Shown: positions 42,995-64,000, counted from the stretch's first letter. The stretch: DNA of 64,000 bases from Chthoniobacterales bacterium (GCA_026418675.1 JAOAAX010000007.1:44323-108322); one strand, 5' to 3'. Made by a program: numbers and translations. Notes: a model not told the origin generated them from the sequence alone.

Positions 42995-44038
42995 ATGGCC
43001 AAAAAAGTCGCAATAATAACATACCATCATGTCGTTAACTATGGTGCTGTTCTTCAGGCTTATGCCCTAAACAGGTTTTTACGGAAGGTAGGGGGTTTTT
43101 CTGTGGAAACCATAGATTACCGTCCACCAAAAGCTATCGAAGCTTACAACAAAGCTCTTTTTGAGAATAATCCGCTTGAAAAAAACAATCGTGCACGTGC
43201 AGAAAAAATCGAGTTCTTTGTTAGAAATTACATCCCTCTCACTGACAAATCTTTTTCCTCTCAGGATCAACTCTTAGAAATCGGTTCTTTCGTTTACGAC
43301 TCTTTTATTACTGGTAGTGATGAAGTTTGGAATATCCACGGCTTCCGCGGTTTCGATACCTCCTACTTCCTTGGGTTTGTCCAATTTGGTCATCGCTACT
43401 CTTATGCTGCATCTTTCGGATTTACGGAATCTACAGGTCAATACCGCGCTCAGATAAGTTCCCTCTTGGAAAAATTCGATGCCATAAGTGTTCGCGACAA
43501 CCATTCCCTCCATATTATCCAGGAGGAGCTTGGTTTGCGGTGCGTGAAAGTTCTTGATCCAACTCTCCTCCTAAAAAATTACGATGAAATTATCCAAATT
43601 CCTCCGGAGCGTGGTTTCATCTTTGTTTACTCAAACTGTTCACCAGAGGAAGCTGATTATATTCGCAGATTTGCGAAATACCTTAACAAGCCCATTATTG
43701 CTGCGGCTTACCCCTTAGAAGGGGCAGAGAATAGGCTCGAGCTTTCACCCGGTGAATGGCTCGGCCATTTCGCTGCCGCAGATTATGTTTTTAATGGCTT
43801 CTTTCACGGTGTAGCTATGTCTCTTTTCTTCCAAAAGCCTTTCACTGCTTTTGCCAAACCTGACAAAATAAAAAAGGTTGGAGATTTGCTTGCCGACGTT
43901 GGATTAGCCGACCGTATAGTCACCGATCCATCACCTAATTCCTCACTCCCATCTCCAGATGTAGATTTTAAAAACGCAATTCTTACTCTCGAGCGCCTCA
44001 ACGAAGAATCACGTGCTTTCCTGCTCGAAAACCTCTAA
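42995..44038 (+). CDS. Polysaccharide pyruvyl transferase family protein
   Basis: KVAIITYHHVVNYGAVLQAYALNRFLRK...FITGSDEVWNIHGFRGFDTSYFLGFV...AISVRDNHSLHIIQEELGLRCVKVLDPTLLL; FNGFFHGVAMSLFFQKPF. Confidence 0.85.
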   Translation: MAKKVAIITYHHVVNYGAVLQAYALNRFLRKVGGFSVETIDYRPPKAIEAYNKALFENNPLEKNNRARAEKIEFFVRNYIPLTDKSFSSQDQLLEIGSFVYDSFITGSDEVWNIHGFRGFDTSYFLGFVQFGHRYSYAASFGFTESTGQYRAQISSLLEKFDAISVRDNHSLHIIQEELGLRCVKVLDPTLLLKNYDEIIQIPPERGFIFVYSNCSPEEADYIRRFAKYLNKPIIAAAYPLEGAENRLELSPGEWLGHFAAADYVFNGFFHGVAMSLFFQKPFTAFAKPDKIKKVGDLLADVGLADRIVTDPSPNSSLPSPDVDFKNAILTLERLNEESRAFLLENL

Positions 44039-46269: not shown

Positions 46270-49200
46270 ATGAAAAAGTTCCCCCGTGTTTTGCTAGTGC
46301 TTTGTGTTCTAATAGTTGCGAGCCTCACAGCACTCATTATCCTTCTCAGAGACGACCAAAAAGCTGAAAAACCCAGTCAGCCTTCCTCTCCTCCTAATTT
46401 GGTATCGACTCCGGCCCCTCCCGGAACTCAACCTATAAGCAATGCTCAATCCAATAATCCGCCGTCAGCTCCTCAACTCCCCTCCTCACCTCCTGTTCAG
46501 CAGCCACACCACGTTTTTCAATCTCCCCTTCAAACCCCATCGCACTCTCTGCCACAAAAAAGTTCGCCAACAACTACTGCAAGTACTCGGTATCCTGTAA
46601 ATCTTCCCCCCGTTGTTCCTGTTCCACAAGGCGAATTATCAACCATTCGGTTTCCCGAACGTTGGCAGGGCGGTAGGATTCTTGCAGCAGGCCGGGAAAA
46701 TGGAACGGGCCGCCGAATTTTAATCATTCAGCCAGACAGTCTTCCTTATCCCGTTCGCATTGTTGAAAAAGATCCCAATGTAAACAAAACCTCTGACCCA
46801 AGACGAAGTGACCTCGCCGCTTTGGATCATGAATTAGTAGCGGACCGCCTCATCGTCAACCTTGGTCCCAATGCCACCGATGCCGATGCCGAACGCGTCG
46901 CCGCTCTCCTCGGCGCCACGGTCGAACGCCGCCTCAATTCCCTCGGCGCCTTCCGCCTCCGTCTCCCGCGCGTCGAATTCGACGGCGTCCCCAAAGCCCT
47001 CGCTTTGCTCGAACAAAAAGGGATTTCCGCCGACCCTGATTACATCGTCTGGGCCAGTTCCACTCCCAACGACCCCCTCTACACCGATGGCACCCTCTGG
47101 GGTATGCACAACACCGGCCAGAATGGCGGCACTCCCGATGCCGATATTGATGCTCCTGAAGGGTGGGCCGTTCGCACATCCGCTCCGGATGTGGTTGTCG
47201 GCGTCATTGACACAGGTGTCCGCTACACCCACGAGGACCTCGTCTCTAACATGTGGGTCAACCCTGGCGAATCCGGCACCGATTCCCTCGGTCGCGATAA
47301 ACGCACCAATGGGGTGGACGACGACGGCAACGGCTTCGTGGACGATGTCCACGGCATCAACGCAGTTACCGGTTCCGGAAATCCCATGGACGACAATGGC
47401 CATGGCACTCACTGTGCCGGCACCATTGCGGGGCGCGGCAATAACGGCCTCGGGGTGGTAGGTGTGGCCTGGCAGGCCAAAATCATGGCGCTCAAATTCC
47501 TGGGAGGTGCGGGCGGCGGCGCCCTCTCCGACGCCATCACTTGTATTCAATATGCCATTGCCAAAGGTGCGCACCTGACTTCCAACTCCTGGGGCGGCGG
47601 TGACTACAACTCCGCCCTTGTTGACGCCATCATTGCCGCTCGCAACGCTAATCAACCCTTCATCGTTGCTGCTGGAAATAACTCCCGCAACAACGACATG
47701 GAGCCAACTTACCCTGCCAGCTACACGATCGAAAACATCGTCGCAGTGGCTTCGATGAACCGCCTCGAAACTCTCTCCAGCTTTTCCAACTACGGCTTTG
47801 CCACTGTCCACGTCGCAGCTCCCGGTAGCGGCATCACCTCCGCTTATTCTAACTCCGACAGCGAATACAAGCTCCTCAACGGCACCAGCATGGCCTGCCC
47901 CCATGTTTCGGGCATCGCTGCCCTCCTCCGTGCCCAATTTCCCTCCGATAACTACCGCCAAATCATCCACCGCATCCTCCGCTCCGTCGATGTCCATTCC
48001 TCCTACACAGGCAAAGTCCTCACCAACGGCCGCGTCAATCTCCACAAAGCCCTCACCACAACCAAAAACACTCCGCCCAATGACGATTTCGCCGAACCGC
48101 TCTTCGTTCCAGGTCCCGAAAACGCCCTCATCACTTACAACATCGGTGCCACAGCCGAATCGGGTGAACCCAACCATGCGAGCGTCGCACCTCAGAAAAC
48201 CCTTTGGTTCACCTACACGGCTTCTTCCAATGGCCCTGTTGTCATCAACACCTCTGGCAGTGATTTCGACACTGTCCTAGCTGTCTATACAGGCAACTCT
48301 CTCGGCAGCCTCACGCTCATCGCTCAAAACGACAACGAAAACTCCAGCACCACTTCCAGCAAAGTCATCTTCAATGCTACTGCCGGCACCACCTACCGCG
48401 TCGCTGTCGGCTCCAAAACCGGCGCCGAAGGCAGTCTCATCTTAGTATTTTCTTATCCACCGCCCAATGACAACTTCGCCAACGCAACTAGCCTCAGTGG
48501 CGACTCCGTCATCCGCGATGGTTCCAACTACAACGCCAGCAAAGAGGCTGGAGAGCCCAACCACGCTGGCCATCCTGGCGGCGCAAGTGTCTGGTTCTCT
48601 TGGACTGTTCCACAAACCGCCACCTATACCATCAGCACAGTTGGCGGCACGTTTTTTGACTCCCTCCTCGCTGTCTATACCGGCAACAACCTGACGAGTC
48701 TCACCCACGTCGCCTCCAACGATAACTACGGCGATTTCGCTTCCAGCCGTGTCACCATCAACGCTACAGCAGGCACCACATACCGTATCGCCATAGATGC
48801 CAAAGACGGCGTCGGCGGCACCTACAAACTCACCATCGGCCGGCCACCCACAAACGACAATTTTGCAGATGCAATCCCCATCACCGGCACACCGCCTCTC
48901 ACTATTACCGGCCGCAATTTCGGTGCCACGATCGAGCCAGGCGAACCCAACCACTCCACCCGCGAAGGCATCCCCTCCGCCAATTCCGTTTGGTGGAAAT
49001 GGACGCCCGCTCAATCCGGCACTTACCAAATCACCCTCGAGCATTCCAACTTCGACACCGTCCTCGCCGTTTATACGGGCAATGCTGTCAATAACCTGAC
49101 TCTCGAAGCCGCCAACGACGACTTCATCGGCTGGGCAAGCCTCCTCAGCTTCACCGCGCGCGCCGGCGTTACCTACTACATCGCTGTGGATGGCTACTCC

Positions 49201-52200
49201 GGTGCCTCCGGCAACATTGACATGAAAATCCTCCCGCCCCCTGTCGCTCTAACCAATGACTACTACGCCGACCGCATCCGCCTCTACGGCGCTCAAATTA
49301 GCGTGGACGCCAGCAACGTCGGTGCAGAGCACGAATACCCAGCCGAAGACATCACGAAAATTTCAACCATCAATCCTGGGGAGCAAGAAATCTACGAAAA
49401 CCGAACCGTCTGGTGGGAGTGGACTGCACCGGCCAATGGCAACGTCACCATTGACACCCTCTACAGCAGCTTCGACACCGTTCTCTTCGTCTGCACAGGC
49501 AACGCTCTCAACAACCCCACCCCTGTGACGTGGAATGACGACATCGGAACGGAAAACGGCGTCTATGTCCGCCAGTCCCGCGTCACTTTCAATGCCGTCC
49601 GCGACACCCGTTACCAAATCATGGTCATGGGCCGCACATGGACCACTTTTGGCTCCATCCGCCTCAACATTAACCAACCCCTTTCCAACCAACCGCCGGT
49701 TATCCATTCCGCTTCCCTATCCCCAGCCAATGCCACCTTCAGCGACCAAGCCGTCAGCGTTGCCAACATCGTCGCCACGGACCCCGAAAACAACACCATC
49801 TCCTACACCTACCAGTGGCAATCCTCCACCGATGGCGGCCTCACTTGGACCAACGCTGCGAATCAAACCTCAGCCACCCTCACTCCCGACGACGCCAACT
49901 CCGGCCGCCTCTGGCGCTGCGTCCTCACCCCACGCGACCCTACCACCACTGGCGAACCTTACACCACCGGCTTCATCGCGCTTGACCGACGCCCCCCAAC
50001 CATAGCAGCCCTCGGGCAACCCTTCTCCTATCAAAGCGGCCTTGTCATTCCCTCCCAGGCAAACCCTGGCAACCGCAAGGTCCTTCTCAACGAAATCAGC
50101 CAGGGCAGCAACCCTGCACAGCCCGCGGAGTGGTTCGAGTTCCTGGTCCTTCGTCCGCGTGATCTCCGCCGGCATTATTTCATGACCTCCTCCGGCGGTT
50201 ACATTGTCCTTACCGGTCATTCCCTATGGCAAAACGTCCCTGCAGGCACCCTCGTCGTGATCTACAACGCCGCCAATCGCGACCCCATCCTCCCACCCGA
50301 CGATTTCGACCCAGCCGATGGCCGACTCGTCATCCCCAGCAATAGCACACTCTACATCCGTCAGGATTCTACGAATCCTTCCGGTTGGTTCCATTCTCAG
50401 AACGAAACCGTCGGCGGCTTGGATCTCGACGACGCCATACGCATCTCCGACAACCGCTGGAATACGAACGACACCGACCCACCTTCGCCTGGCAGCCTCC
50501 TCGATGGCATCCACTGGGGCTATTTCGCCAACGGCGTCACAGCAGATACCCCCCAAGTTTATCAAATCGAAGGCCTCCCCGCTGGCCAAGCTCTGGTCTT
50601 CACCTCCAACGACCCAGCTTTCGCAGAAAACGGTGCTGCTTGGACCAAATTCGCTGCAACTGCTGCCAACGCAACCCCTGGCGAGCCCAACAACCTCGAC
50701 CAGCGCGATTGGATTAACGCCCTCCGCGAGCCAACTCCCCGTTGGCGCGTTGCCGATACCAGCGAACCTCTCCCACCCGGCCTGACCTTAAACGCAACCA
50801 CAGGGCTGCTCTCCGGCACGCCCTCCGGAAACGTAAGCCTCACCCGCAACCTCGTCCTCGAGCGCTACAGCTCCACCCAAAACGTCCGCCGTGCCTTTAC
50901 TCTCCGCGTCGTTGCACCCGGTGTGTCCTCTGCCACGGTTTATGAGCCGTTCAGCTACCCGCTCAACCAGAGCCTCGTCAACGCCAGCGCCAATGCTACA
51001 GGCCTCACAGGCACCTGGAATGGCTCCCTCCAGGCCAACGTCACTGGCACAAGCCTCGCCCCGAGCGGGATCAGCTTTGCCGGTGCCCGCTTCAATACAA
51101 CTGCCTCCGGCACCTCCGATCTTTATGTTCCTTTCACCACCGCTGCGCGCCAAACCCTCAATCCCCCTGCCAACGGCTCACGCACCATTTGGATGTCTTT
51201 CACCGTCCGCCTCCCGGCCACAGGAGGGCAGCCCGGCGTGCACCTCGCGCGTGACGCCTCCACACCGATTGCTGGCGTGCGCGTCAGCGACTCCTCCGCA
51301 CGCTTCTGGGTTTGTAGAAATGCCGCTGTAACAGGTGACGGCACCGCGAGCCCCAATAACTCCATCGTTTCCAATACCGATTATTTCGTCCTCGCTCGCT
51401 TTGTGGTCACTAACAATTCCGGAAATGTGTCCGACGGTTGGGGCGGTAACGGCACCATCGCTGCCGATGCATGGGTTTACCCTGCCTCTGCACCTCCCTC
51501 TAATGCCCCCACAGGCACCGGCACCGCCTCCTTCTCCGCACGCACCGACGGCACCGGCACACGCTATATCAACGGCCTCCTCATCCGCGGCTCCAGCGCC
51601 ACTGCAGGCATGCAGGTGGATGAAATCCGCATCGCTACAACCTTCGAGCAAGTTGCACGCGATCCGGTGGACGGCGCCCCTGGTTCCCTTACCGCCACTG
51701 CTATTAGCGGAACGGCCATTCAGCTCAACTGGGTTGACTATGCCAACAACGAAACTGGTTTCCGGGTAGAAGTCAGCACCGACGGCAATTCTTGGAGCCC
51801 CCTGGCCACTCTCGCTTCCAACTCCACCTCTTATCTCCACACGGGACTCCCCAACGGGGCCACACGCTACTACCGTGTTTGTGCGATCAATCCAACTGGC
51901 GACAGTGGCTTTGCTGGCCCAGCCTTTGCCACCACATGGACCGCTCTCCAATCTTGGCGCCACACCCACTTCGGCACTACGGAAAATACCGGCAACGCAG
52001 CCGATTCCGCAGACCCCGACGCCGACGGTATCCCCAACCTCATCGAGCATGCCCTTGGCGGCACTCCTACAAGCCCCGCTTCGCGGCCTCAGCCCACCGT
52101 CGGCACAACCACCGTTAGCGGCCAGCGGCGCCTTACGCTTACCTTCACCCCGCAGGTCCTCAGCGGATTGACCTACATCGTGCAAGCCAGCAACGACCTC

Positions 52201-52332
52201 TCCAATTGGTCCACCCAGACCGACGTCACCTCCAGCCTCACGGCAGGCCAACCCTACACCTTCACCGACTCCGCCGACCTCGCCACCACCCCACGCCGCT
52301 TCCTCCGCCTCCTCATTCGAACTTCAAATTAA
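46270..52332 (+). CDS. Giant secreted subtilisin-like (S8) serine protease with tandem accessory domains and shared C-terminal domain
   Basis: 2020 aa; N-terminal TM + Pro-rich linker; catalytic D (VVGVIDTGVRYTHEDL), H (DDNGHGTHCAGTIAG), S (LLNGTSMACPHVSGIAALL); four PPC-like modules, Ig-like, lamin-tail-like, FnIII-like and C-terminal DPDADGIPNLIEHALGG domain. Confidence 0.93.
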   Translation: MKKFPRVLLVLCVLIVASLTALIILLRDDQKAEKPSQPSSPPNLVSTPAPPGTQPISNAQSNNPPSAPQLPSSPPVQQPHHVFQSPLQTPSHSLPQKSSPTTTASTRYPVNLPPVVPVPQGELSTIRFPERWQGGRILAAGRENGTGRRILIIQPDSLPYPVRIVEKDPNVNKTSDPRRSDLAALDHELVADRLIVNLGPNATDADAERVAALLGATVERRLNSLGAFRLRLPRVEFDGVPKALALLEQKGISADPDYIVWASSTPNDPLYTDGTLWGMHNTGQNGGTPDADIDAPEGWAVRTSAPDVVVGVIDTGVRYTHEDLVSNMWVNPGESGTDSLGRDKRTNGVDDDGNGFVDDVHGINAVTGSGNPMDDNGHGTHCAGTIAGRGNNGLGVVGVAWQAKIMALKFLGGAGGGALSDAITCIQYAIAKGAHLTSNSWGGGDYNSALVDAIIAARNANQPFIVAAGNNSRNNDMEPTYPASYTIENIVAVASMNRLETLSSFSNYGFATVHVAAPGSGITSAYSNSDSEYKLLNGTSMACPHVSGIAALLRAQFPSDNYRQIIHRILRSVDVHSSYTGKVLTNGRVNLHKALTTTKNTPPNDDFAEPLFVPGPENALITYNIGATAESGEPNHASVAPQKTLWFTYTASSNGPVVINTSGSDFDTVLAVYTGNSLGSLTLIAQNDNENSSTTSSKVIFNATAGTTYRVAVGSKTGAEGSLILVFSYPPPNDNFANATSLSGDSVIRDGSNYNASKEAGEPNHAGHPGGASVWFSWTVPQTATYTISTVGGTFFDSLLAVYTGNNLTSLTHVASNDNYGDFASSRVTINATAGTTYRIAIDAKDGVGGTYKLTIGRPPTNDNFADAIPITGTPPLTITGRNFGATIEPGEPNHSTREGIPSANSVWWKWTPAQSGTYQITLEHSNFDTVLAVYTGNAVNNLTLEAANDDFIGWASLLSFTARAGVTYYIAVDGYSGASGNIDMKILPPPVALTNDYYADRIRLYGAQISVDASNVGAEHEYPAEDITKISTINPGEQEIYENRTVWWEWTAPANGNVTIDTLYSSFDTVLFVCTGNALNNPTPVTWNDDIGTENGVYVRQSRVTFNAVRDTRYQIMVMGRTWTTFGSIRLNINQPLSNQPPVIHSASLSPANATFSDQAVSVANIVATDPENNTISYTYQWQSSTDGGLTWTNAANQTSATLTPDDANSGRLWRCVLTPRDPTTTGEPYTTGFIALDRRPPTIAALGQPFSYQSGLVIPSQANPGNRKVLLNEISQGSNPAQPAEWFEFLVLRPRDLRRHYFMTSSGGYIVLTGHSLWQNVPAGTLVVIYNAANRDPILPPDDFDPADGRLVIPSNSTLYIRQDSTNPSGWFHSQNETVGGLDLDDAIRISDNRWNTNDTDPPSPGSLLDGIHWGYFANGVTADTPQVYQIEGLPAGQALVFTSNDPAFAENGAAWTKFAATAANATPGEPNNLDQRDWINALREPTPRWRVADTSEPLPPGLTLNATTGLLSGTPSGNVSLTRNLVLERYSSTQNVRRAFTLRVVAPGVSSATVYEPFSYPLNQSLVNASANATGLTGTWNGSLQANVTGTSLAPSGISFAGARFNTTASGTSDLYVPFTTAARQTLNPPANGSRTIWMSFTVRLPATGGQPGVHLARDASTPIAGVRVSDSSARFWVCRNAAVTGDGTASPNNSIVSNTDYFVLARFVVTNNSGNVSDGWGGNGTIAADAWVYPASAPPSNAPTGTGTASFSARTDGTGTRYINGLLIRGSSATAGMQVDEIRIATTFEQVARDPVDGAPGSLTATAISGTAIQLNWVDYANNETGFRVEVSTDGNSWSPLATLASNSTSYLHTGLPNGATRYYRVCAINPTGDSGFAGPAFATTWTALQSWRHTHFGTTENTGNAADSADPDADGIPNLIEHALGGTPTSPASRPQPTVGTTTVSGQRRLTLTFTPQVLSGLTYIVQASNDLSNWSTQTDVTSSLTAGQPYTFTDSADLATTPRRFLRLLIRTSN
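48069..49680 (+). repeat. Four tandem roughly 130-aa PPC/CUB-like modules inside the S8 protein
   Basis: Module starts PPNDDFAEPLFV / PPNDNFANATSL / PPTNDNFADAIPI / LTNDYYADRIRL; each has (V/L)W(W/F)xWT...FDT(V/L)LAVYTGN...LTxxAxND...YxIAVD. Confidence 0.85.
51942..52332 (+). repeat. Shared C-terminal domain, copy 1
   Basis: ALQSWRHTHFGTTENTGNAADSADPDADGIPNLIEHALGGTPTSPASRPQPTVGTTTVSGQRRLTLTFTPQVLSGLTYIVQASNDLSNWSTQTDVTSSLTAGQPYTFTDSADLATTPRRFLRLLI. Confidence 0.95.
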
Positions 52333-52347
52333 CCTTCAACAAAAATT

Positions 52348-55300
52348 ATGCGCCCCCCTTCTTATAGGTTCCTTCTACTCTTTTTTGTTCTTACAGTGAG
52401 CGCTGCGTTCCCGCCTCTCGCCCGGGCGCAGTATTACACGTTCACGACGAATGTTTCGATCAGTTGGAACTCTGGCTTCATGTCTGACGGCACAGATAAC
52501 GGGGCGATCTATGTCCCCGAGCACGTGACAGAGCCCAAAGGCGTCATCTTTTTCTGGAATGGCGATGGCGAAGACCGCCGTTACATGACGACAGTCGGTT
52601 GGTTTCAGCAAATCGCCCGTGCCATGGACTATGCCATCATCGCCCTGCAAAGCGTTTACACCAAAGGCTACCACATCCTCGCCACACAGAATACCGTCAC
52701 TTGGACGCTTGAAAATGCTGCCATTGCCAGCAATCGCCCCGTCCTCCGCAATGCTCCCGTTTACGCAATGGGGCACTCCCGTGGTGGGATCGTCAGTATC
52801 CGCTGTGCGAAACACATCCCATGGCGCATCCTCGCTTACGCCGCTAGCAAGGGCTACGATTGGGACTACGACAATCCTGATAGTCCTGCCGATCCTCCTT
52901 TCCCACCCAATTATCAGCTCGTGCCCGGCTTCTGGATGCCAGGGGAGACAGATTCTAACACAATAGTCAATCCTTTCAAAGTCCAACAATCCTTCCAAAC
53001 TCTCTGGCGCAACATCGGTGCGCTGGCCGCCTATGCCGTAGATTACAACGTTAGCCACGAGGACATGAGCGGGCAATACCACGACTTTGCTGCCCTTCTT
53101 CTTCGAGAAGCCCATGCCCTGCGCCATCCCGGCACTCCCCCCTCCAGCACTCCAGGTGATTGGCTCCAGCTCGGCAACCTCACCTTCTCCAGTGGCTGGT
53201 TAGCGGAGCGTGCATTCTTTAACAATTCCACGAGTGACATCAATTCGCAGTGCACACAAACCGTCCGCCCCACATGGCCACAAATTGCCCCCGTAGCAAA
53301 CTTTACTGGCAACGCCAGCATCGCTTCTTGGCTGCCCAATGAACTCATGGCACGTGTTTACCGTGCCCACACCTCAACCCAGCCTACCTACGTCAACCGC
53401 CTTGAGGTTCCCCGCCAAAACCCCCTCCAAATCGAAACCCCTGCCCGCTTCCAGCGCTTCCGCACTACCGACCCCGTTTTCATTTCCGTGGATCCGCGCG
53501 AGTGGGCCGATTCCACCACCATCACCAAGATGGAGTTCTACCTCAACACCACCAAGCTCGGCGAACGCACCGATGGCAACTGGACGTGGGATGCCGGCAC
53601 CATCTCCACCCCTGGCATCCACGCCGTGATCGTCGAAGCCGAAGGAGCCGACGGCACCCGCTATGCCGCTTACACGGCCATTTTGGTCTTCGACCCCCTC
53701 TCCAGCGGGAATCTGACGAATACATGGACAGGCAACGCAAGCAGTAACAACATCCAAGCCGGCGAAAATTGGAGCGCAGGAAATTCAACTTGGCAGTCCA
53801 TCACAAGTGGCAACATCACGGTCCTTGATACTCGCCAACTCTTTGTTCTCAATGGAGCGAGCCGGAATAACCAAGCAACCCTCAGCACCGGCAGTGCTTC
53901 TAACGATCCCGCCATCTTGGGCTTTCGCTTCCTCAGCGCCAATGGCACAAACCCATTCACTATCTCGGGCTGGCGCAGAATTTATCTGGGAGCAATGGGT
54001 ATCGTAAACTTGGATAACGACCAGCAAGTCTTTAATAACGCGGAGCTATTCCTCAATGGCAGTCAAATCTGGGATGCTTCTGCAGGTAATCTCCTCATCG
54101 GTAATGGCACCTTGAACAAAATCCGCTTCGGTTCAAGGCAGTCCTCTCTACCTCGTTTCATCCCAGAAGGAAGCACCCTCACCATTACCGGCTCCGCTAA
54201 CACTACCATCAATGCACCCATTGACGGCAACGGCGCACTCATCAAAGATGGTTCAGGTATACTTATAATCAATTCTAATTGCTCAAATTGGACGGACTCA
54301 GACCAGCCTTGGTCGCCTTCCTCTTTTCACGAGACCCTTTGTGTTATGAGAGGCACATTGCGACTCGGATCAAACGCTGTATTGAATCCCCGCACACGTC
54401 TCTTGATTGCCAATCATCCCAATGCAACTCTCGAAGCCGATGGCCTCAAACTGACATTCGCAACCCTCCAAGGCGGAGGTTCAATTCATCTAGGAACAGG
54501 TGGCAACCTTACTATTACTCACGACTTCGTTCGCAATTCCTCGAATAATTCCACGATCTGGTTTTACCCAATTGCTTTCAACTATCGCGGATCCATTCAT
54601 GGAGGGTCCCCTAACAACACAACCCTCTTCATCCAGCCAGGTCCTAACAACCTTAACACCTACCGTCTAGGAGGCAATAGCACATTCGCGGGACAAGTGC
54701 AGCTTAGTAGTGGCAACCTCATCATTAGCCACACTAGTGCTCTAGGCGCCAGCGGCACTGGCAACGAAACCTTTCTTCCGAGTGGGTCAGTCCTATTCCT
54801 ACTCGGCAACGGGATGAACATTCCGGAAACGCTCAGCCACAATGCGGCCAACACGGTGGCACTGATTAACCAGCGCGGCAACAACACGTGGAGCGGGCCG
54901 ATCCATTTTTCGACGCGATCTGGCAGCCCCACGGTTCAAATCCACAACAACGGAACGAACTCAACCCTTACTCTCTCTGGGGGAATAAGCGGCAACGCCA
55001 CGGCAGGCAATTCTACGTTTGTGCAACTGCAGCCGAACGGTATCGGCAGCGGGATTCATGTTACGGGCGGACTGCAGAATGGCACGGCTGGCGGGAATCT
55101 GCGTGTGGTGGTGGCGCCGAATGCGACGGGGAGCTGGGTGCGGATGAGCGGAGTGAGCAATTACACTGGCGCCACGCAGCATGTGCGCAACACGCTGCTC
55201 ATTGGGTCGGATGTGCCAGCAAGCGGCGATGGGGCGCTGGGGAACTCGGCCGGCGGCACCATTTTCCTTGGCCGCTCGGGCCACACCGTGGCTACGGACA

Positions 55301-56376
55301 ACATTGTGTTTCTCACCGACGGCCCTGTAACCATTGGGCGCACGCTTCAAGTCAACAATGTCAACACGGGTGGCAACATTACGGTTGGGGGCAACAGCGG
55401 GCATGTGTCGAACTACACGGGTAGCATCACGATCAACGAAACGCGCACGCAGATTGCGCTCACCTCTGCTTCGGGCGGCAATGTGGTCATCAGCGGGCAG
55501 ATCAGCGGGGGAGCGAGCAACATGACGCTTACCAAAACGGGCCCGGGCACCCTTACCTTGGCTCGCGCTGGAGGCAACACCTACAATGGCTCGACGACGG
55601 TTGCCCAAGGCACGCTGCTTGTCACCAACACCTCTGGCACGGCCACGGGCAACGGCTCGGTGACGGTGCAGAACAACGCGCGGCTTGGAGGCACGGGCAC
55701 GATAGCCGGGGCAGTGACGATGCAGAGCGGCGCACGGTTGGTGTTTGACCTGACGACCAACGCCAGCGTGCACGACCGGTTGGACATTAGCGGCACGCTG
55801 ACGCTCAACAACACGGCGATTGACCTGACCAGCACGAACAACGGGATAGCAGCGGGGAACTACACGCTGGTGCAGGCGGGGAGCATCACCGGCAGCCCTG
55901 GCAGTGTGGTCGTGCCGAGTGGGTGGAATGGGACGGCGAGTGTGGTGGGAGGGAACCAACTGCGGGTGCAGATTCAGCAAGCGCTGACAGCGCTGGAGCA
56001 GTGGCGGCAGACGCACTTTGGCTCGCCTGCGAATAGTGGCGACGGGGCAGATACTGCCGACCCGGACGCCGACGGCATCCCCAACCTCATTGAATACGCG
56101 CTGGGAGGCAACCCGACGAGTGCGGCCTCTCGCCCACAGCCTACCGTTGGCACCGCTGTTGTGAGCGGCCAGCAACGGCTCACGCTGACCTTTACGCCGC
56201 AAGTTGTCAGCGGTCTGACCTACCTCGTCCAAGCCAGCAACGACCTCTCCGACTGGTCCACCCAAACCGACGTCACCTCCAGCCTCACCGTCGGCCAACC
56301 CTACACCTTCACCGACTCCGCCGACCTCGCCACCACCCCACGCCGCTTCCTCCGCTTGCGAGTCACTTCAAACTAA
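52348..56376 (+). CDS. Giant secreted protein: esterase-like N-domain + autotransporter-associated beta-strand repeats + shared C-terminal domain
   Basis: 1342 aa; signal peptide; GVIFFWNGDGEDRRYMTTVGWFQQIARAMDYAIIAL...VYAMGHSRGGIVSIRCAKH (GxSxG-type); PATR-like GGNVVISGQISGGASNMTLTKTGPGTLTLARAGGNTYNGSTTVAQGTLLV; C-terminal DPDADGIPNLIEYALGGNPTS. Confidence 0.85.
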   Translation: MRPPSYRFLLLFFVLTVSAAFPPLARAQYYTFTTNVSISWNSGFMSDGTDNGAIYVPEHVTEPKGVIFFWNGDGEDRRYMTTVGWFQQIARAMDYAIIALQSVYTKGYHILATQNTVTWTLENAAIASNRPVLRNAPVYAMGHSRGGIVSIRCAKHIPWRILAYAASKGYDWDYDNPDSPADPPFPPNYQLVPGFWMPGETDSNTIVNPFKVQQSFQTLWRNIGALAAYAVDYNVSHEDMSGQYHDFAALLLREAHALRHPGTPPSSTPGDWLQLGNLTFSSGWLAERAFFNNSTSDINSQCTQTVRPTWPQIAPVANFTGNASIASWLPNELMARVYRAHTSTQPTYVNRLEVPRQNPLQIETPARFQRFRTTDPVFISVDPREWADSTTITKMEFYLNTTKLGERTDGNWTWDAGTISTPGIHAVIVEAEGADGTRYAAYTAILVFDPLSSGNLTNTWTGNASSNNIQAGENWSAGNSTWQSITSGNITVLDTRQLFVLNGASRNNQATLSTGSASNDPAILGFRFLSANGTNPFTISGWRRIYLGAMGIVNLDNDQQVFNNAELFLNGSQIWDASAGNLLIGNGTLNKIRFGSRQSSLPRFIPEGSTLTITGSANTTINAPIDGNGALIKDGSGILIINSNCSNWTDSDQPWSPSSFHETLCVMRGTLRLGSNAVLNPRTRLLIANHPNATLEADGLKLTFATLQGGGSIHLGTGGNLTITHDFVRNSSNNSTIWFYPIAFNYRGSIHGGSPNNTTLFIQPGPNNLNTYRLGGNSTFAGQVQLSSGNLIISHTSALGASGTGNETFLPSGSVLFLLGNGMNIPETLSHNAANTVALINQRGNNTWSGPIHFSTRSGSPTVQIHNNGTNSTLTLSGGISGNATAGNSTFVQLQPNGIGSGIHVTGGLQNGTAGGNLRVVVAPNATGSWVRMSGVSNYTGATQHVRNTLLIGSDVPASGDGALGNSAGGTIFLGRSGHTVATDNIVFLTDGPVTIGRTLQVNNVNTGGNITVGGNSGHVSNYTGSITINETRTQIALTSASGGNVVISGQISGGASNMTLTKTGPGTLTLARAGGNTYNGSTTVAQGTLLVTNTSGTATGNGSVTVQNNARLGGTGTIAGAVTMQSGARLVFDLTTNASVHDRLDISGTLTLNNTAIDLTSTNNGIAAGNYTLVQAGSITGSPGSVVVPSGWNGTASVVGGNQLRVQIQQALTALEQWRQTHFGSPANSGDGADTADPDADGIPNLIEYALGGNPTSAASRPQPTVGTAVVSGQQRLTLTFTPQVVSGLTYLVQASNDLSDWSTQTDVTSSLTVGQPYTFTDSADLATTPRRFLRLRVTSN
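55981..56376 (+). repeat. Shared C-terminal domain, copy 2
   Basis: ALTALEQWRQTHFGSPANSGDGADTADPDADGIPNLIEYALGGNPTSAASRPQPTVGTAVVSGQQRLTLTFTPQVVSGLTYLVQASNDLSDWSTQTDVTSSLTVGQPYTFTDSADLATTPRRFLRLRV. Confidence 0.95.
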
Positions 56377-56392
56377 CTATATTTTTCAATCA

Positions 56393-59365
56393 GTGAAAAA
56401 ACTCCTCGTTTCTCTATCCATCGTCTGGGCAACCAAAGCCCTGGCGGCAAATTTTACTGCCACGCTAATCCCTTATGGAACAGGCGAAGGGGACTACGGC
56501 ACCAATGGCGTAAATCAAACTTCGGGGGTCATACCAAATCCCCTCCAAGGGGACTACCGTTGGGGGTGGCACGATACCTCAGGGAATTACGATAATGGTT
56601 GGTTCCCTCAAGTAGGTTTGCCTTCAGGCAGAGTTTATTACGACGATTACAAACGCTTCGTTTGGCGAGCACTAGAACGCGAACCAGGCAACTACACCGC
56701 CGGAATAAACCTCATCAATTGGCACTTACAACAAGCCCAGCAGCGCGGCCGTCGCTTTTCCTTTCGCGTCATGATCTTAAGTGAATACGAAGGAGATGTG
56801 GATGGCGATGGACAAACCGATGGCCTTACCGGTGTGCCAAACTACATTGCCAACAACTCCTCCCTCGGCCGCCGCTTCTCCTCCACAAAAGCGGAATGCG
56901 AGAACATTTTCATTCCCTATTGGAATCAACCTTACTTCCTCGATCGGGTCGAGGCCCTCTTAAATGCCCTCGGCTCCGCTTTCAACGGGGATCCACGCCT
57001 CGCTTTTATTGACATCGGCATTTATGGCCATTGGGCCGAGTGGCACATGAGCGGTATGGGGCTTTCTTCTATTCCTCCAGAAATAAACGCTACCGTTGCA
57101 ACTCGGCAGCGCCTCATTGATATTTACAACGCCGCATTCCCCAACACACGCATTCTCATGCTCCCCGACATTGATGGCGATTACCCCGATCGCAGCGGAG
57201 CAGGCTTCGCTTATGCCATGCAAAACTACCCTCGAATGGGTGTCCGTAAAGACAACCTCTCCAACGCCTGGTTCGAGCAGGAAGTTGGCGATTGGTTCCC
57301 CATCATCCGCGACAATTTCCAAAACCGTTGGCGCACAACTCCTTTCGTAACTGAATTTTTCGGCGGCGAAAACGAAAGTGCCCTTCAACTTGCTGAATCG
57401 CAGGTCATTCGCTATAACGTCAGCATGGTTGCCACCAACCAATGGCACAATAGTCCCCAGCGTATCGAAATCGGGAAAGCCGCCGGTCATCGATTCCAAC
57501 TCCATAATGCCACTTGGCCCGATAGTGTCCAAGCAGGCTATGCCTTCACGATTAACTCGACATGGTCAAACATCGGAGTCGCTCCAGCTTATGAAAACTG
57601 GGCTCCAACGTGGGAATTATACTCCAGCAATGGGACACGCGTTTGGGCCGCTCGTTCCCGCCTCGATCTCCAGCGCTTCCTTCCAACTACCGTAAACCCT
57701 GACGATGACGTTAACACAACCGATACAAACAATCCCATCGTTATCTCCGATACTCTCGCTGTCCCCGCAAACTTAACAGCCGGCAACTACAGCCTACGCC
57801 TCCGTATCCCATTCATCCTCAGCAACGGTTCTGAGCATCCCTATCTCCTGCCCCTCGCCATCGCTATCCGCGGCCGCGATTCCCAAGGCCGTTACACGCT
57901 CGGCAACCTTTCCATTACGACTCCTACTACCCCAGCTCCCGCTCTAACACTCTCCGGTCCCTCTGTCCTCTACAGTGGAATCTCCGCTAATTTTACCGCC
58001 AATGTCACGAGCAATTCCACCATTAGCCAAGTCCAACTTTTGGCCGATGGGAATGTCGTAGGAACAGACACCACTTCCCCTTACACCTTCTCTTGGACCC
58101 CAAATGCCACAGTCGGAGTTGTAACTTTCGTCGCGAGAGCAACAGATTCTGAAAACCGCACAGGCGCTTCCCAACCCCTGAGCTACGAAGTCCGCTTAGC
58201 TCCCAACAACGCACCCAATGTAACATTGACTATTACTCCAGCTTCCGGTCCTTACATCTCCCCTGTCAATATTACCCTCACAGCCAATGCAACCGATCCC
58301 GATGGCGATTCCATCTCTCGGGTCGAATTTTACCGCGGCACAACTCTCCTTGCAAACGATACTTCCCCACCTTACTCCACCAATACAACCCTCACCGCCG
58401 GCACCTACACCCTCCTCGCCCGTGCCTACGACAGCCGTGGTAAATTCGGTTCCGCTACACAAGACATAACCGTCCAAAATCCCCCAAAACAACCCTATGG
58501 TGGAACCCCACGCAATATCCTCTCTATAATCCAGCTCGAGGATTACGACGAAGGAGGACAAGGTGTGAGTTGGCACGATACAAGCCCCACCAACGAAGGC
58601 GGAGCATATCGCAACGATAGTGTGGACATTCAAAACACCGGGGATACAGGAGGAGGTTATCACCTTGGCTGGGTTAACAACGGAGAATGGCTCGAATACA
58701 CTGTCTCTGTTCCCCAAACAAATACTTACCGCCTCCATATCCGTTACGCAGCCGCAAACGAAGGAGGAAACGCCACCATCTCCCTATCCGTAGATGGTCA
58801 GCCAGCTTGGACAAACCAAACCCTACCCCCCACCGGCCGATGGAGTTGGGATTTCGAAAATTGGACCACGTGGAATAGCACCCAAACCGTCCGCCTCGCA
58901 AAAGGCACACGTGTCCTTCGCTTGTCCTTCGGAAACGGTATGGCAAATTACAATTGGATGACCTTCTCCGCAACTGGTCCCCAGGTTTATGCCGACTGGG
59001 CCGAAGATCAAGGCCTCTCTGGATCCAGCGCAAACGCCACATCTGACCCCGACGCCGACGGCATCCCCAACCTCATCGAATATGCCCTCGGCGGAAACGC
59101 AACGAGTCCCGGGTCGCGCCCACAGCCCACTGTCGGCGCAACCACCGTCAGCGGCCAGCAACGCCTCACGCTCACCTTTACCCCGCAAGTAATCAACGGT
59201 TTGAGCTACTTCGTGCAAGCCAGCAACGATCTCTCCGACTGGTCCACCCAAACCAACGTCACCTCCAGCCTCACCGTCGGCCAACCTTACACCTTCACCG
59301 ACACCGCCGACCTCTCCACCACCCCACGCCGCTTCCTCCGCCTCCGTATCCAGAACAACCAATGA
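56393..59365 (+). CDS. Secreted DUF4832/DUF4874-like protein with Ig-like domains, CBM6-like domain and shared C-terminal domain
   Basis: GTG start, signal peptide MKKLLVSLSIVWATKALA; WHLQQAQQRGRRFSFRVMILSEYEGD...GRRFSSTKAECENIFIPYWNQPYFLDRVEALLNALGSAF...DIGIYGHWAEWHM; CBM6-like QLEDYDEGGQGVSWHDTSPTNEGGAYRNDSVDIQNTGDTGGGYHLGWVNNGEWLEYTV. Confidence 0.8.
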   Translation: MKKLLVSLSIVWATKALAANFTATLIPYGTGEGDYGTNGVNQTSGVIPNPLQGDYRWGWHDTSGNYDNGWFPQVGLPSGRVYYDDYKRFVWRALEREPGNYTAGINLINWHLQQAQQRGRRFSFRVMILSEYEGDVDGDGQTDGLTGVPNYIANNSSLGRRFSSTKAECENIFIPYWNQPYFLDRVEALLNALGSAFNGDPRLAFIDIGIYGHWAEWHMSGMGLSSIPPEINATVATRQRLIDIYNAAFPNTRILMLPDIDGDYPDRSGAGFAYAMQNYPRMGVRKDNLSNAWFEQEVGDWFPIIRDNFQNRWRTTPFVTEFFGGENESALQLAESQVIRYNVSMVATNQWHNSPQRIEIGKAAGHRFQLHNATWPDSVQAGYAFTINSTWSNIGVAPAYENWAPTWELYSSNGTRVWAARSRLDLQRFLPTTVNPDDDVNTTDTNNPIVISDTLAVPANLTAGNYSLRLRIPFILSNGSEHPYLLPLAIAIRGRDSQGRYTLGNLSITTPTTPAPALTLSGPSVLYSGISANFTANVTSNSTISQVQLLADGNVVGTDTTSPYTFSWTPNATVGVVTFVARATDSENRTGASQPLSYEVRLAPNNAPNVTLTITPASGPYISPVNITLTANATDPDGDSISRVEFYRGTTLLANDTSPPYSTNTTLTAGTYTLLARAYDSRGKFGSATQDITVQNPPKQPYGGTPRNILSIIQLEDYDEGGQGVSWHDTSPTNEGGAYRNDSVDIQNTGDTGGGYHLGWVNNGEWLEYTVSVPQTNTYRLHIRYAAANEGGNATISLSVDGQPAWTNQTLPPTGRWSWDFENWTTWNSTQTVRLAKGTRVLRLSFGNGMANYNWMTFSATGPQVYADWAEDQGLSGSSANATSDPDADGIPNLIEYALGGNATSPGSRPQPTVGATTVSGQQRLTLTFTPQVINGLSYFVQASNDLSDWSTQTNVTSSLTVGQPYTFTDTADLSTTPRRFLRLRIQNNQ
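58985..59365 (+). repeat. Shared C-terminal domain, copy 3
   Basis: VYADWAEDQGLSGSSANATSDPDADGIPNLIEYALGGNATSPGSRPQPTVGATTVSGQQRLTLTFTPQVINGLSYFVQASNDLSDWSTQTNVTSSLTVGQPYTFTDTADLSTTPRRFLRLRI. Confidence 0.95.
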
Positions 59366-62300
59366 TAATATCTATGAAAGTCGTAGGCACTCGTGGCTTC
59401 TCTCATCAACTTACGACTTTCTCAGACCTTAATAACTTCTTCAAATCTATCGCTAAATTGGTCGTTGGCGGTATTTTTTTCTACGCTGTTCCCGGCTTCG
59501 CCTCAGAATGGTTCGTCGCCCCCACTGGCAATGACACCACAGGTAATGGAAGCTTCTCCGCTCCCTTCCAAACCATCGCAAAAGCCATGGCCACAGCCTC
59601 CCCTGGCCATACGATTACCCTCCGGGCGGGAATCTATCGCGAAATGGTCACCTTCAACAAAAGCGTCACCCTCCGCGCCTACCGCCCCTCGACTTCCCAA
59701 CCCGCAGAAGAAGCCATCATTTCTGCCCTTGAGCCAATCACCGGCTGGCAGCTGGATTCAGGCAGCATTTACAAAGCCCCAATGAATTGGGAGCTTGTCT
59801 CAGACACAGATGCTGATAACGACAAACGCCCCTTCATCCAACACCAGGTATTTTTCGTCAACAACGGCACTTACCAACCCTTGGTCCAAGCTCGTTGGCC
59901 CAATATTCCCTACACCATCGCCACAAGTTACACTTACAACGACGTCGCCCGCATGGAATTCGCCAGCGGCAAAGTTGGCACCCCCAATTACATCAACGCA
60001 ACCGTCGCTTGGTTCACAAACGACGAGTCCCACATCCCCATGCCAACTGCCATTCGGAATCTGCTCCCTGGCTCACTCATCACCTACCAGCCGGCTACGA
60101 TGTATTTCTCGCGCACAAACCGTATCCCTGCCAACCCCGCCGAAGCCTTCGCAAATCGCAACGGAAATTTCACAGACGAAATCACAATTTTCGCAGAACG
60201 TCTCAAATCCGATAACCCAAACAGCACCAACCCTTTCAATGGCGATTACGACTACCCCAACGCCGGTTGCAGCTACCACGTGTGGGGAAAAAAGGAATAC
60301 CTCGATGCACCCGGCGAGTGGTTCCGCGAACCCACAGGCACAGGTGACAACGGCACCCTCTACGTCTGGATGCCAGATGGCGCTGCCCCGGGCAACCGCA
60401 TCGAAGCCAAACGCCGCATGCAAACCATCGTCATCGGCAACATGGGGGAAGCCGAGAACCTCTCCAACTCCACACTCGATGGCATCGTGCTCGAGGATTT
60501 GGTTTTTCTCGGCGGAGGAATTTCCGTCAGCCGCAACAGCGACAACCTCACCGTCCGCCGTTGCCGCTTCCTCTTCACTTCCCACCTCGAAGATCAGCGC
60601 TTCAATTACACCGCCCGTTGGAACCGCCGCTCCCTCCTCCTCGCTTCCCGTAATAACCTCGTCGAAGATTGCGATTTCCTCGATTCAGAAAACGCCATCG
60701 AGATCAACGGCCGCAATAACCAAATCCGCAACTGCGTATTCCTCAGAATCGGCGCCAACAGTAATTCCCCTGCCATCCAAGCCACTTTTGTGGATAGCAT
60801 TAACAATGACGGCTCTCCAGCCCAGCGCAACCGCGTCGAACGCTGCACGTTCTCCCTCATCGGCCTCACCGCCATCCAGCTCCACCGCGGTATGGACACC
60901 TTCTTCAACGACGTCAGCGGAACCCACCGCCGCGGCAACGACGTCGGAGCAATCAGCGCCTTCCCAAATACCGACCTCCTCGGCATAGAGGTGGGTTACA
61001 ACTGGGTGCACGACAGCTTCCCTATCCCAAAAGATACCACAAACGGCAAAGTCTTCTACGGCTCCCATGGAATTTACACCGACCGCGGCGTCCGCAATGC
61101 AACCTTTTACAGAAACGTCGTTTGGGGCATGACCGGCCCTGCCATCGCGATGCTCCGAACCGGCAACGGCACCGGCAATAGCGGCCGAATTGTTGACCAC
61201 AATACTGCCACTGGAGAAATTTCCTTCGAAAGCAATACCGACACCATCACCTTCCGCAATAACCTCCAAAATAATACCCTCTTCCCCACCACCAACGTTG
61301 TCCTCACAACCAATCTCCGCGTAAGTAACAAAGGCGCCGGTTGGGTGGACGCCGCCAACAACACTTACACCCTCCGCCCCGACAGCATGGCCATTGATAC
61401 CGGCACCATTCTCGGCAATGCCGCCTATCAGCAATACACCGGCTCTGCCCCCGACGCCGGTGCCTACGAATTCGGCATTGCCTGGGAATTCGAGCCCGGC
61501 GCAACCCTCATCAATGGCACCCTCCCTTCCCCCTCCTCCATCACCATCTCCCCCTCTGCCGACCGCCAAACTGCCACTGCAACCCTCACCGTCTTCCAAC
61601 CCCCGCGCAAGCTCCCCCCCAATTCGCAAGCCCGCTTGGGTTCCAATGCTCCCTCCTCCGCACTTCGCCAAACGGTCCTCGGATCCAATGGTTCCTTAGT
61701 CATTACTTTTGAAAACCTCCCCCTTGGCAACCTCACAGGCTCCCAACCTTTCCAAATTTCCCTCAATGGCGGCTCTTCCTGGCACACGCTGGCCAATGTT
61801 TCCATACCCCCGCCAAACACCGTCAACCTCTCCCTCCCAGCCCAAAACCCCCTCGCAAACTCCACTATCACCATTCCACGCTCCTCCCTCCCCTTTGCTA
61901 GCCCCATACGCTACCAACGAACCGTCACGGTCAGCAACCCCTCCGGTCAGCGGCTCGATTTTTACCCCGTCCTCGTTACCTTTAACGGCTCTGCATGGCA
62001 TTCCGCGGGACAACTCCGCGCCGATGCCGCCGATCTCCGTGCCTCCCTCCCTGACGGCACACCCCTCCCCCTGTGGCTCGAAAGCGGCGCAAACACCTCC
62101 TCAACCCGAGTCTGGGTCCTCCTGCCCCAAATCCCCACCTCCGGCGCCAATTTCCTCCTCACCTCTGGCGATTTCGGCCTCTCCTCCGCAAGCAATGGCA
62201 CGGCCGTTTTCCACTTCTACGATGGCTTTGATAATGGCCAGCGCAGACCAGAATGGGTCGGCAATTCCACCCAGACCGATGCCCACGGCAATACCGCCAA

Positions 62301-63432
62301 CATCACCGTCCAGGACGGCCAATTGGTCATTTCCGGCAACATCGCAAACAACATCGACTACGGCGTCATGTTCGGCGTGAACCTTCCAACCCAAGACCCC
62401 AATTTCTACCCCCCCTCCACCCACATCCTCGAAAGCCGCGTCCAAGTCTTCCGCTCCGGTGGCAATGCCCCACCAACCTCCAACGTCTGGAAAGCCCTCG
62501 TCGGCGGCGACACCGCCTACGCCGCCATCAACAGCGGCCAAATCGCCTTCTACACAACCACATGGAACAACCTCGCTCCCACATTCATAACCGGTGGCAA
62601 TTCCGTCACCACCGGCTATGCCGTCGACCCTTCCGATGGCGGCCCCACTGGCTCCCTCTGGGTCTTTGAAAATTCCCAACTCAGAGCCACCCGCACAAAT
62701 CTCGATTTCGTCAGCGTCTGGAATACTCCCACAGGCCGCGGAAATTGGCGCTTCAATCCCCAGGCCCTTGGAACCTTCGAAATGCGTGTTGACGACGTCC
62801 GAGTCCGTCCCTGGGTTCTCAACGAGCCAACCACTTCCATTTCCTCTCCCACCACCCTCAACGCAACCACCCCCGCCGCACAACTCCTCTCACAAAATCT
62901 CACCGTCACTTGGTCCCCAACAGGCGATTTGCAAGTCCATATCCCCCCGCTCAATAGACCTTACTCACCGCAGGAATCCATCCAAATCTGGCACAACGGG
63001 CTTCTTGTCGCCAACTTCCAGTTCTCATGGAACACCGGCTCCTCCCCACTCGAACAATGGCGCTATAATAATTGGCAGACCATCGCCAACTCCGGCAACA
63101 GCGCCGACTCCGCTGACCCTGATGCCGATGGCATCCCCAACCTCATCGAATACGCGCTGGGAGGCAACCCGACGAGTGCGGCCTCTCGCCCACAGCCCAC
63201 CGTCGGCACCGCTCTTGTGAGCGGCCAGAAGCGCCTCACGCTCACCTTCACCCCGCAAGTCGTCAGCGGCCTGACCTACCTCGTCCAAGCCAGCAACGAT
63301 CTCTCCGACTGGTCCACCCAAACCAACGTCACCTCCAGTCTCACCGTCGGCCAACCCTACACCTTCACCGACTCCGCCGACCTCGCCACCACCCCACGCC
63401 GCTTCCTCCGCCTACGGATTCTAGCAAATTAA
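59362..63432 (+). CDS. Secreted right-handed beta-helix protein with DUF2341-like domain and shared C-terminal domain
   Basis: 1356 aa; WFVAPTGNDTTGNGSFSAPFQTIAKAMATASPGHTITLRAGIYRE (DUF1565/pectate-lyase-like start), LTVRRCRFLF...NLVEDCDFLDSENAIEINGRNNQIRNCVF, DUF2341-like LDFYPVLVTFNGSAWHSAGQLRADAADLRASLPDGTPLPLWLESG; start overlaps the previous stop (ATGA). Confidence 0.85.
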   Translation: MIISMKVVGTRGFSHQLTTFSDLNNFFKSIAKLVVGGIFFYAVPGFASEWFVAPTGNDTTGNGSFSAPFQTIAKAMATASPGHTITLRAGIYREMVTFNKSVTLRAYRPSTSQPAEEAIISALEPITGWQLDSGSIYKAPMNWELVSDTDADNDKRPFIQHQVFFVNNGTYQPLVQARWPNIPYTIATSYTYNDVARMEFASGKVGTPNYINATVAWFTNDESHIPMPTAIRNLLPGSLITYQPATMYFSRTNRIPANPAEAFANRNGNFTDEITIFAERLKSDNPNSTNPFNGDYDYPNAGCSYHVWGKKEYLDAPGEWFREPTGTGDNGTLYVWMPDGAAPGNRIEAKRRMQTIVIGNMGEAENLSNSTLDGIVLEDLVFLGGGISVSRNSDNLTVRRCRFLFTSHLEDQRFNYTARWNRRSLLLASRNNLVEDCDFLDSENAIEINGRNNQIRNCVFLRIGANSNSPAIQATFVDSINNDGSPAQRNRVERCTFSLIGLTAIQLHRGMDTFFNDVSGTHRRGNDVGAISAFPNTDLLGIEVGYNWVHDSFPIPKDTTNGKVFYGSHGIYTDRGVRNATFYRNVVWGMTGPAIAMLRTGNGTGNSGRIVDHNTATGEISFESNTDTITFRNNLQNNTLFPTTNVVLTTNLRVSNKGAGWVDAANNTYTLRPDSMAIDTGTILGNAAYQQYTGSAPDAGAYEFGIAWEFEPGATLINGTLPSPSSITISPSADRQTATATLTVFQPPRKLPPNSQARLGSNAPSSALRQTVLGSNGSLVITFENLPLGNLTGSQPFQISLNGGSSWHTLANVSIPPPNTVNLSLPAQNPLANSTITIPRSSLPFASPIRYQRTVTVSNPSGQRLDFYPVLVTFNGSAWHSAGQLRADAADLRASLPDGTPLPLWLESGANTSSTRVWVLLPQIPTSGANFLLTSGDFGLSSASNGTAVFHFYDGFDNGQRRPEWVGNSTQTDAHGNTANITVQDGQLVISGNIANNIDYGVMFGVNLPTQDPNFYPPSTHILESRVQVFRSGGNAPPTSNVWKALVGGDTAYAAINSGQIAFYTTTWNNLAPTFITGGNSVTTGYAVDPSDGGPTGSLWVFENSQLRATRTNLDFVSVWNTPTGRGNWRFNPQALGTFEMRVDDVRVRPWVLNEPTTSISSPTTLNATTPAAQLLSQNLTVTWSPTGDLQVHIPPLNRPYSPQESIQIWHNGLLVANFQFSWNTGSSPLEQWRYNNWQTIANSGNSADSADPDADGIPNLIEYALGGNPTSAASRPQPTVGTALVSGQKRLTLTFTPQVVSGLTYLVQASNDLSDWSTQTNVTSSLTVGQPYTFTDSADLATTPRRFLRLRILAN
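63041..63432 (+). repeat. Shared C-terminal domain, copy 4
   Basis: SSPLEQWRYNNWQTIANSGNSADSADPDADGIPNLIEYALGGNPTSAASRPQPTVGTALVSGQKRLTLTFTPQVVSGLTYLVQASNDLSDWSTQTNVTSSLTVGQPYTFTDSADLATTPRRFLRLRI. Confidence 0.95.
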
Positions 63433-64000
63433 TCCCGCGCAAAAACACACACAGGAAGTTCGCAGGAATCACCTTGCCTCCTAAAAAATTCCTTCTGAAG
63501 TTGATGAGCTTACTTCTTCCGGAAAGCTCAAGTTCCATCCTTCCATGCATAGACAGCCGGACCGCCTTCTTTTCTAAATTCGAACACCCAAAACCCATTA
63601 AAACCGTTCGGTTACTCTGCGCATCAAATTCCACTTGAATCGCAAACGGCCCATTAAACCCCTCCTTGTAAGCCCGCAAAGCGGGCTTCATCTTCTCCCG
63701 TAACCGCTCATCTTTTGACGGCTAGGGCACACCTCAATTCTCCTTTCTTACCCTTAGATTCATTGGACAGTGGGAAAAAGGAACTTTCTTTTAAATTTAC
63801 GCCCTCACACTCCCTCCTGCTGTAGGAGTTTATGGAAAATTATTTCAGTGTCACAAATTAGCGGCCCGCGAACAGATTTCGCACCGTTTGCAGATGGATT
63901 GGGGAATCGAAGAGAGCGCGGCGGGAAATTCTAGCCCAGCCAGAACTTTGCTGCAAACGCGCTCTTTCCCGGCCTTGCAAGTTGTCGGCGGATATTCCCT

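Follow-up and report, generated by a model that had tools for sequence, protein, structure and literature searches.

A 64,000-nucleotide stretch of DNA from a Chthoniobacterales bacterium (GCA_026418675.1, JAOAAX010000007.1:44323-108322), referred to here as the window, represents the end of contig C109 in a 2.34-Mb genome that is 94% complete. On its plus strand, four consecutive open reading frames (ORFs) encode large proteins that terminate in the same domain (Table 1). The sequence-only reading of this DNA had noticed the common end and proposed that it acts as a secretion or cell-surface attachment tag on otherwise unrelated exported proteins. Our analysis confirmed that the four frames are open and that they share a C-terminal domain. 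The regions upstream of the domain were indeed unrelated and matched Peptidase_S8, PATR, DUF4832/CBM_6, and DUF1565/DUF2341 as described, with the exception of the "esterase" part of protein 2, where Pfam gave no match and the motif GHSRGG of a hydrolase-like part was recognised by eye. Weak He_PIG/fn3 matches were located in protein 1 between the PPC stretches and the terminal domain. The suggestion that all four proteins are exported held for proteins 2 to 4, which have signal peptides, while the N-terminus of protein 1 may be an uncleaved signal anchor instead of a classical signal peptide.

Table 1. Genes, domain copies, and sequence elements in the window (positions counted from its first nucleotide; aa, amino acids).
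Feature	Position	Strand	Description
Protein 1	46270..52332	+	2020 aa: N-terminal hydrophobic segment, Peptidase_S8 (subtilase), four PPC stretches, then domain
Protein 2	52348..56376	+	1342 aa: signal peptide (...LARA-Q), alpha/beta-hydrolase-like N-terminal part, PATR repeat, then domain
Protein 3	56393..59365	+	990 aa: signal peptide, DUF4832, Big_7 x2, CBM_6, then domain
Protein 4	59362..63432	+	1356 aa: signal peptide (...FFYAVPGFAS), DUF1565 beta-helix, DUF2341, then domain
Domain copy 1 (protein 1)	51949..52329	+	Alignment; own-genome profile match E 1.2e-77
Domain copy 2 (protein 2)	55993..56373	+	Alignment; own-genome profile match E 1.3e-79
Domain copy 3 (protein 3)	58982..59362	+	Alignment; own-genome profile match E 2.3e-72
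Domain copy 4 (protein 4)	63049..63429	+	Alignment; own-genome profile match E 8.9e-80; copy used for AlphaFold
EF-hand/TSP3-like loop DPDADGIPNLIE, copy 4	63115..63150	+	D23-x-D25-x-D27-G28-x-x-N31-x-x-E34, almost unchanged throughout the phylum
Last ~40 codons of copy 4	63310..63429	+	Four-fold degenerate sites near-identical across all four copies

Alignment of the four copies defined a shared segment of approximately 127 aa, with 73-80% identity to copy 1 and a mean column identity of 85%, and each protein ended a few residues past an R-F-L-R-L motif. The consensus letters given in the sequence-only reading were correct overall, although copy 1 has EHALGGT in place of EYALGGN, and the FG that follows the Trp helix is missing from copies 3 and 4. 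A direct-repeat search of positions 46270-64000 disclosed a single 300-nt family, represented by four copies that are 81-91% identical to the reference copy, and no other direct repeat of at least 40 nt besides this domain family.

The similarity of the copies was unevenly distributed. Between copies 1 and 2, for example, 22 of 23 four-fold degenerate sites were identical in the last 40 codons, compared with 6 of 21 in the first 50. Near-identity of the 3' degenerate sites next to diverged first codons indicates recent gene conversion or recombination between the copies, which points to recombination at the 3' end as a simple route by which new passengers may gain the domain. Elsewhere in the genome, contigs C81, C91, C121, and C123 start or end within the domain, at residues 86-101; these positions fit assembly breaks in the near-identical 3' part. 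Most of a further giant carrier gene lies on C81, with an uninterrupted frame of at least 2508 codons. Two adjacent, degenerate domain copies broken by stop codons or frame shifts were also found on contig C60 (10098-10858), which probably means that a carrier gene is decaying or that the assembly contains errors.

To assess the distribution of the domain, we used profiles of the four copies in their own genome and of ten members in 291 sampled Verrucomicrobiota genomes, the kind of search that the sequence-only reading had envisaged. The first returned 12 matches, some of them cut at contig ends, and the second detected the domain in 183 of the 291 genomes at E<=1e-3 and in 109 at E<=1e-8. 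A closed 6.4-Mb genome alone gave 130 matches; some of these cover internal loops resembling thrombospondin type 3 (TSP3) repeats only, so we estimate about 100 complete domains. A single peptide pattern was also run against 85,462 bacterial and archaeal species genomes, and 77 loci were kept from its best 80 hits. These carry Verrucomicrobiota titles (Opitutaceae, Akkermansiaceae, Chthoniobacter, Spartobacteria, Methylacidiphilales, and others), with one labelled only "bacterium". Judged from these best 80 hits, the domain is likely confined to Verrucomicrobiota. Searches of plasmid and phage collections gave no match. Copies from the same genome were on the whole 0.46 identical, versus 0.40 between genomes, with a clear excess in the present genome and in JAIXRU; genome-specific co-evolution of the copies was dropped as a general feature, since only a few genomes displayed such an excess.

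Matches were expected to be C-terminal and to bear signal peptides, and this is largely what the named loci revealed. Of 106 matches reaching the end of the profile in the 77 loci, 102 lay at the extreme C-terminus (15 residues or fewer from the stop codon), and nearly all of 60 copies from the sampled genomes were C-terminal as well. The distance from the RFLRL motif to the end of the protein varied from 3 to 9 residues and was exactly 5 in 58 of 88 copies, and proline was the last residue in 68 of 102. Four loci departed from this arrangement: L145 has two domains in tandem, L119 a marginal fn3-like match upstream of the terminal copy, L140 an extra copy near the N-terminal end, and L115 a TIGR02597-like module (below the cut-off of that model) following the domain. 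The stacked arrangement of L115 (5890-10371) resembles by eye that of L029, in which about 305 aa follow the domain, and suggests that Verrucomicrobiota proteins can carry more than one such module in succession at the C-terminus.

Signal-peptide-like N-termini, called by a home-made rule, were present in 55 of 61 carriers; the same rule applied inside the proteins gave 9 false positives in 61. None of 70 carriers had a C-terminal hydrophobic segment (18-mer). The 45 complete carriers matched 52 Pfam families, none of which occurred in more than 6 proteins, and the 25 commonest passenger families are almost all of extracellular type, for example, Calx-beta, He_PIG, GH43, PATR, LRR_5, CBM_2, LTD, and RhgB_N. 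Terminal position, signal peptides, and diverse extracellular passengers are together what one would expect of a module for sorting or anchoring. The domain is thus a real module, widespread across the Verrucomicrobiota, on large, Sec-exported, otherwise unrelated proteins.

AlphaFold predicted a compact fold for copy 4 supplied with 79 homologues (pLDDT, predicted local distance difference test, 97.7; pTM, predicted template modelling score, 0.87). The predicted elements are a helix (residues 2-9), a loop, a second helix (31-37), and six strands (51-57, 60-67, 75-82, 88-93, 104-107, and 119-126), and a second, diverged member was modelled with the same order of elements (pLDDT 92.3). Residues W4, D23, D25, D27, G28, N31, E34, Y35, A36, P41, Y77, W88, F119, R121, and L122 are near-invariant across the phylum. 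Those from D23 to E34 follow the twelve-residue loop pattern of EF-hand, TSP3, and dockerin motifs, and from this residue pattern the loop probably binds calcium. The N-terminal half was also found alone in named loci, as internal TSP3-like repeats. Profile-profile comparison matched the last ~50 residues to the end of F5/8 type C (discoidin) domains with 86% probability, whereas reversed and column-shuffled controls reached no more than about 2%. The domain is therefore a TSP3-like unit fused to a six-stranded beta unit with a discoidin-like end, and the dockerin/TSP3 likeness described in the sequence-only reading applies to the first third only.

No model in Pfam, NCBIfam, or PHROGs covered the domain in the four window proteins, and no Pfam or NCBIfam family covered it in 46 diverse members. 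DUF3999 and Amuc_1099 were rejected as its identity because their matches were weak and sub-threshold; the Amuc_1099 matches in the genomes corresponded mostly to the TSP3-like loop, and we accordingly abandoned the idea of a connection with the Akkermansia pilus-like system. Neither a sequence-profile search of the PDB nor a Foldseek search against the PDB and viral models returned anything at E<=0.001, and no description of the domain was found in the open-licence literature. Judged from these libraries and this literature, the domain is undescribed.

The best single reading of these data is that of a C-terminal sorting or surface-retention domain, to which we assign a probability of about one half. 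The passenger would be exported by Sec, after which the domain would fold in the calcium-rich envelope or outside the cell, its final strand (RFLRLxV) closing the six-stranded beta unit about 5 residues before the stop codon. The folded domain could then be recognised by an outer-membrane export system, or could itself hold the protein at the cell surface. Recombination within the 3' end of the tag is probably how new passengers in the present genome acquire it or have it homogenised. We infer the localisation, the calcium binding, and both the existence and the identity of a partner. The attachment-tag proposal of the sequence-only reading is partly supported: it agrees with position, spread, signal peptides, and passenger diversity. 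Several observations weigh against sorting. The strict C-terminal position could also be explained by an end-cap with a structural role, or by the chance addition of a binding domain at 3' ends, and the discoidin-like end suggests binding over export. Copies within a genome are mostly only slightly more alike than copies between genomes, so that, a few genomes apart, nothing strongly indicates that they have co-adapted to a receptor particular to their genome. Lastly, no machinery with a domain-specific phylogenetic profile was found.

A beta unit with a discoidin-like end makes a glycan-binding role in surface retention a serious alternative to a secretion signal. Here, a small half-discoidin-like domain on a calcium-stabilised stalk would bind glycans or polymers, either the exopolysaccharide of the cell itself or the substrate polysaccharide, and would be accessory to the passenger instead of sorting it. 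The controlled discoidin comparison speaks for this possibility, as do weak, independent matches to the CBM32 structure 4a42 by sequence profile and by fold, the frequent polysaccharide-degradation genes beside carriers, the many carbohydrate-active passengers, and a near-perfect co-occurrence with exosortase, which belongs to an exopolysaccharide-linked system. Carbohydrate-binding modules, however, normally occupy any position and occur in several copies, whereas our domain is almost always terminal and single; it is also attached to passengers with no obvious glycan connection (subtilase, LRR, endonuclease), and comparison of its overall fold gave no match to a discoidin domain. We regard this explanation as the strongest competitor, with a chance of being correct that is well short of even.

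Less probable still is a structural end-cap, that is, a beta domain, stable and calcium-bound, that would shield the C-terminus of very large extracellular proteins or nucleate their folding, and that would be shuffled among them without a partner. The unit is predicted to be very stable and compact, the occurrence of its N-terminal half alone makes spread by shuffling plausible, and signs of 3'-end gene conversion are present in this genome. In contrast, a generic cap should not be limited to one phylum, nor should it hold a fixed exit length past the last strand across highly diverged copies. We consider an end-cap unlikely.

The sequence-only reading had proposed looking for a co-occurring protease or secretion gene. 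Exosortase (PF09721) was detected in 107 of the 109 genomes with the domain (E<=1e-8) versus 113 of the 182 without (62%), a comparison not corrected for relatedness or genome size. The domain lacks a transmembrane tail and is thus not an ordinary exosortase substrate, and unless shown otherwise we read the association as a shared life-style of exopolysaccharide- and exoprotein-rich cells. One closed genome (G115) has the domain and 18 PEP-CTERM matches with no detected PF09721. Given these matches its exosortase may have been missed; either the enzyme was missed or lost, or the PEP-CTERM proteins are orphans. Within genus g10 both exosortase and the domain vary between species, which provides a natural test set. 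The GspE/PilB-type ATPase was universal and hence uninformative, and a secretin was present in 26 of 26 carriers but also in 16 of 20 non-carriers. Clustering of neighbouring genes at the 77 loci disclosed no recurrent machinery family beside carriers, which is expected if one distant machinery serves many substrates; the neighbours, read from their ORFs, were often polysaccharide-degradation genes.

Two known routes could account for such a machinery, and both appear very improbable. Processing as a variant exosortase substrate, in the manner of PEP-CTERM proteins, would explain the co-occurrence above, but none of 70 carriers has a C-terminal transmembrane segment, there is no PEP motif, PEP-CTERM proteins form a separate set in the same genomes, and many genomes have exosortase without the domain. 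Recognition as a distant type IX secretion system (T9SS) C-terminal domain by a diverged SprA translocon would follow, by analogy, the same logic of Sec signal peptide, folded C-terminal domain, and many substrates for one distant machinery, but T9SS C-terminal domain models were missing from the Pfam/NCBIfam matches of the 46 members at E<=0.1, and SprA (TIGR04189) was unmatched in 46 genomes including 26 carriers, an absence left unproven by a model that was also silent in all 14 control genomes. Returning to the sorting or surface-retention reading, its boldest form is a dedicated, undescribed Verrucomicrobiota route for outer-membrane export or surface attachment that would serve up to ~100 substrates per genome, with the scope of a type IX system and unrelated parts. 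We put this forward tentatively, as a possibility with the odds against it.

Directly upstream of the four carrier genes, positions 42995-46206 contain two genes, one for a polysaccharide pyruvyl transferase and, after it, one for a 722-aa protein that has no Pfam or NCBIfam match.

Little is known of how Verrucomicrobiota move and retain their many large surface and polysaccharide-degrading proteins. If the sorting or retention role is correct, one domain marking up to ~100 proteins per genome would let the exoproteome be predicted from sequence, and would offer a concrete handle for reaching the export or attachment machinery. The domain would also close a gap in Pfam and NCBIfam, as a result of which many proteins have unannotated ends.

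Several established modules share features with the domain. T9SS substrates combine a Sec signal peptide with a folded, beta-sandwich-like C-terminal domain, many of them depending on one machinery encoded elsewhere in the genome. Like the type IX C-terminal domains (TIGR04183; Por_Secre_tail, PF18962), our domain is a folded, beta-rich extreme C-terminus on many unrelated Sec-exported proteins; unlike them, it contains an EF-hand-like loop, occurs in Verrucomicrobiota, and gives no detectable sequence match. The PEP-CTERM signal (TIGR02595) consists of a short motif, a transmembrane helix, and a basic tail. It is likewise a C-terminal tag on exported proteins and is found in the same genomes, mostly on shorter frames, whereas our domain is a 120-aa soluble unit without a hydrophobic segment, and TIGR02595 matched none of the 46 members. 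TIGR02597 is another Verrucomicrobiota module able to occupy the C-terminus, but it is unrelated in sequence and far longer (363 model positions). With F5/8 type C domains (discoidin, CBM32; PF00754), the last 50 residues share the pattern Y-x-VE-x-S-x-D-xxx-W ... RFLRL. Only this C-terminal part is common to the two; our domain is preceded by a helix-loop-helix, is placed terminally, and has no global fold match, and PF00754, an eight-stranded jelly roll, was not among the Pfam matches of the 46 members. Dockerins, finally, bind calcium through two F-hand repeats and partner with a cohesin. Our domain resembles these and the bacterial TSP3 repeat (PF18884, touched by only 3 of the 46 members, best E 0.007) in having a calcium-type loop, DxDxDGxxNxxE, with a short helix after it, and differs from them in that its single loop is joined to a beta unit to form one compact fold.

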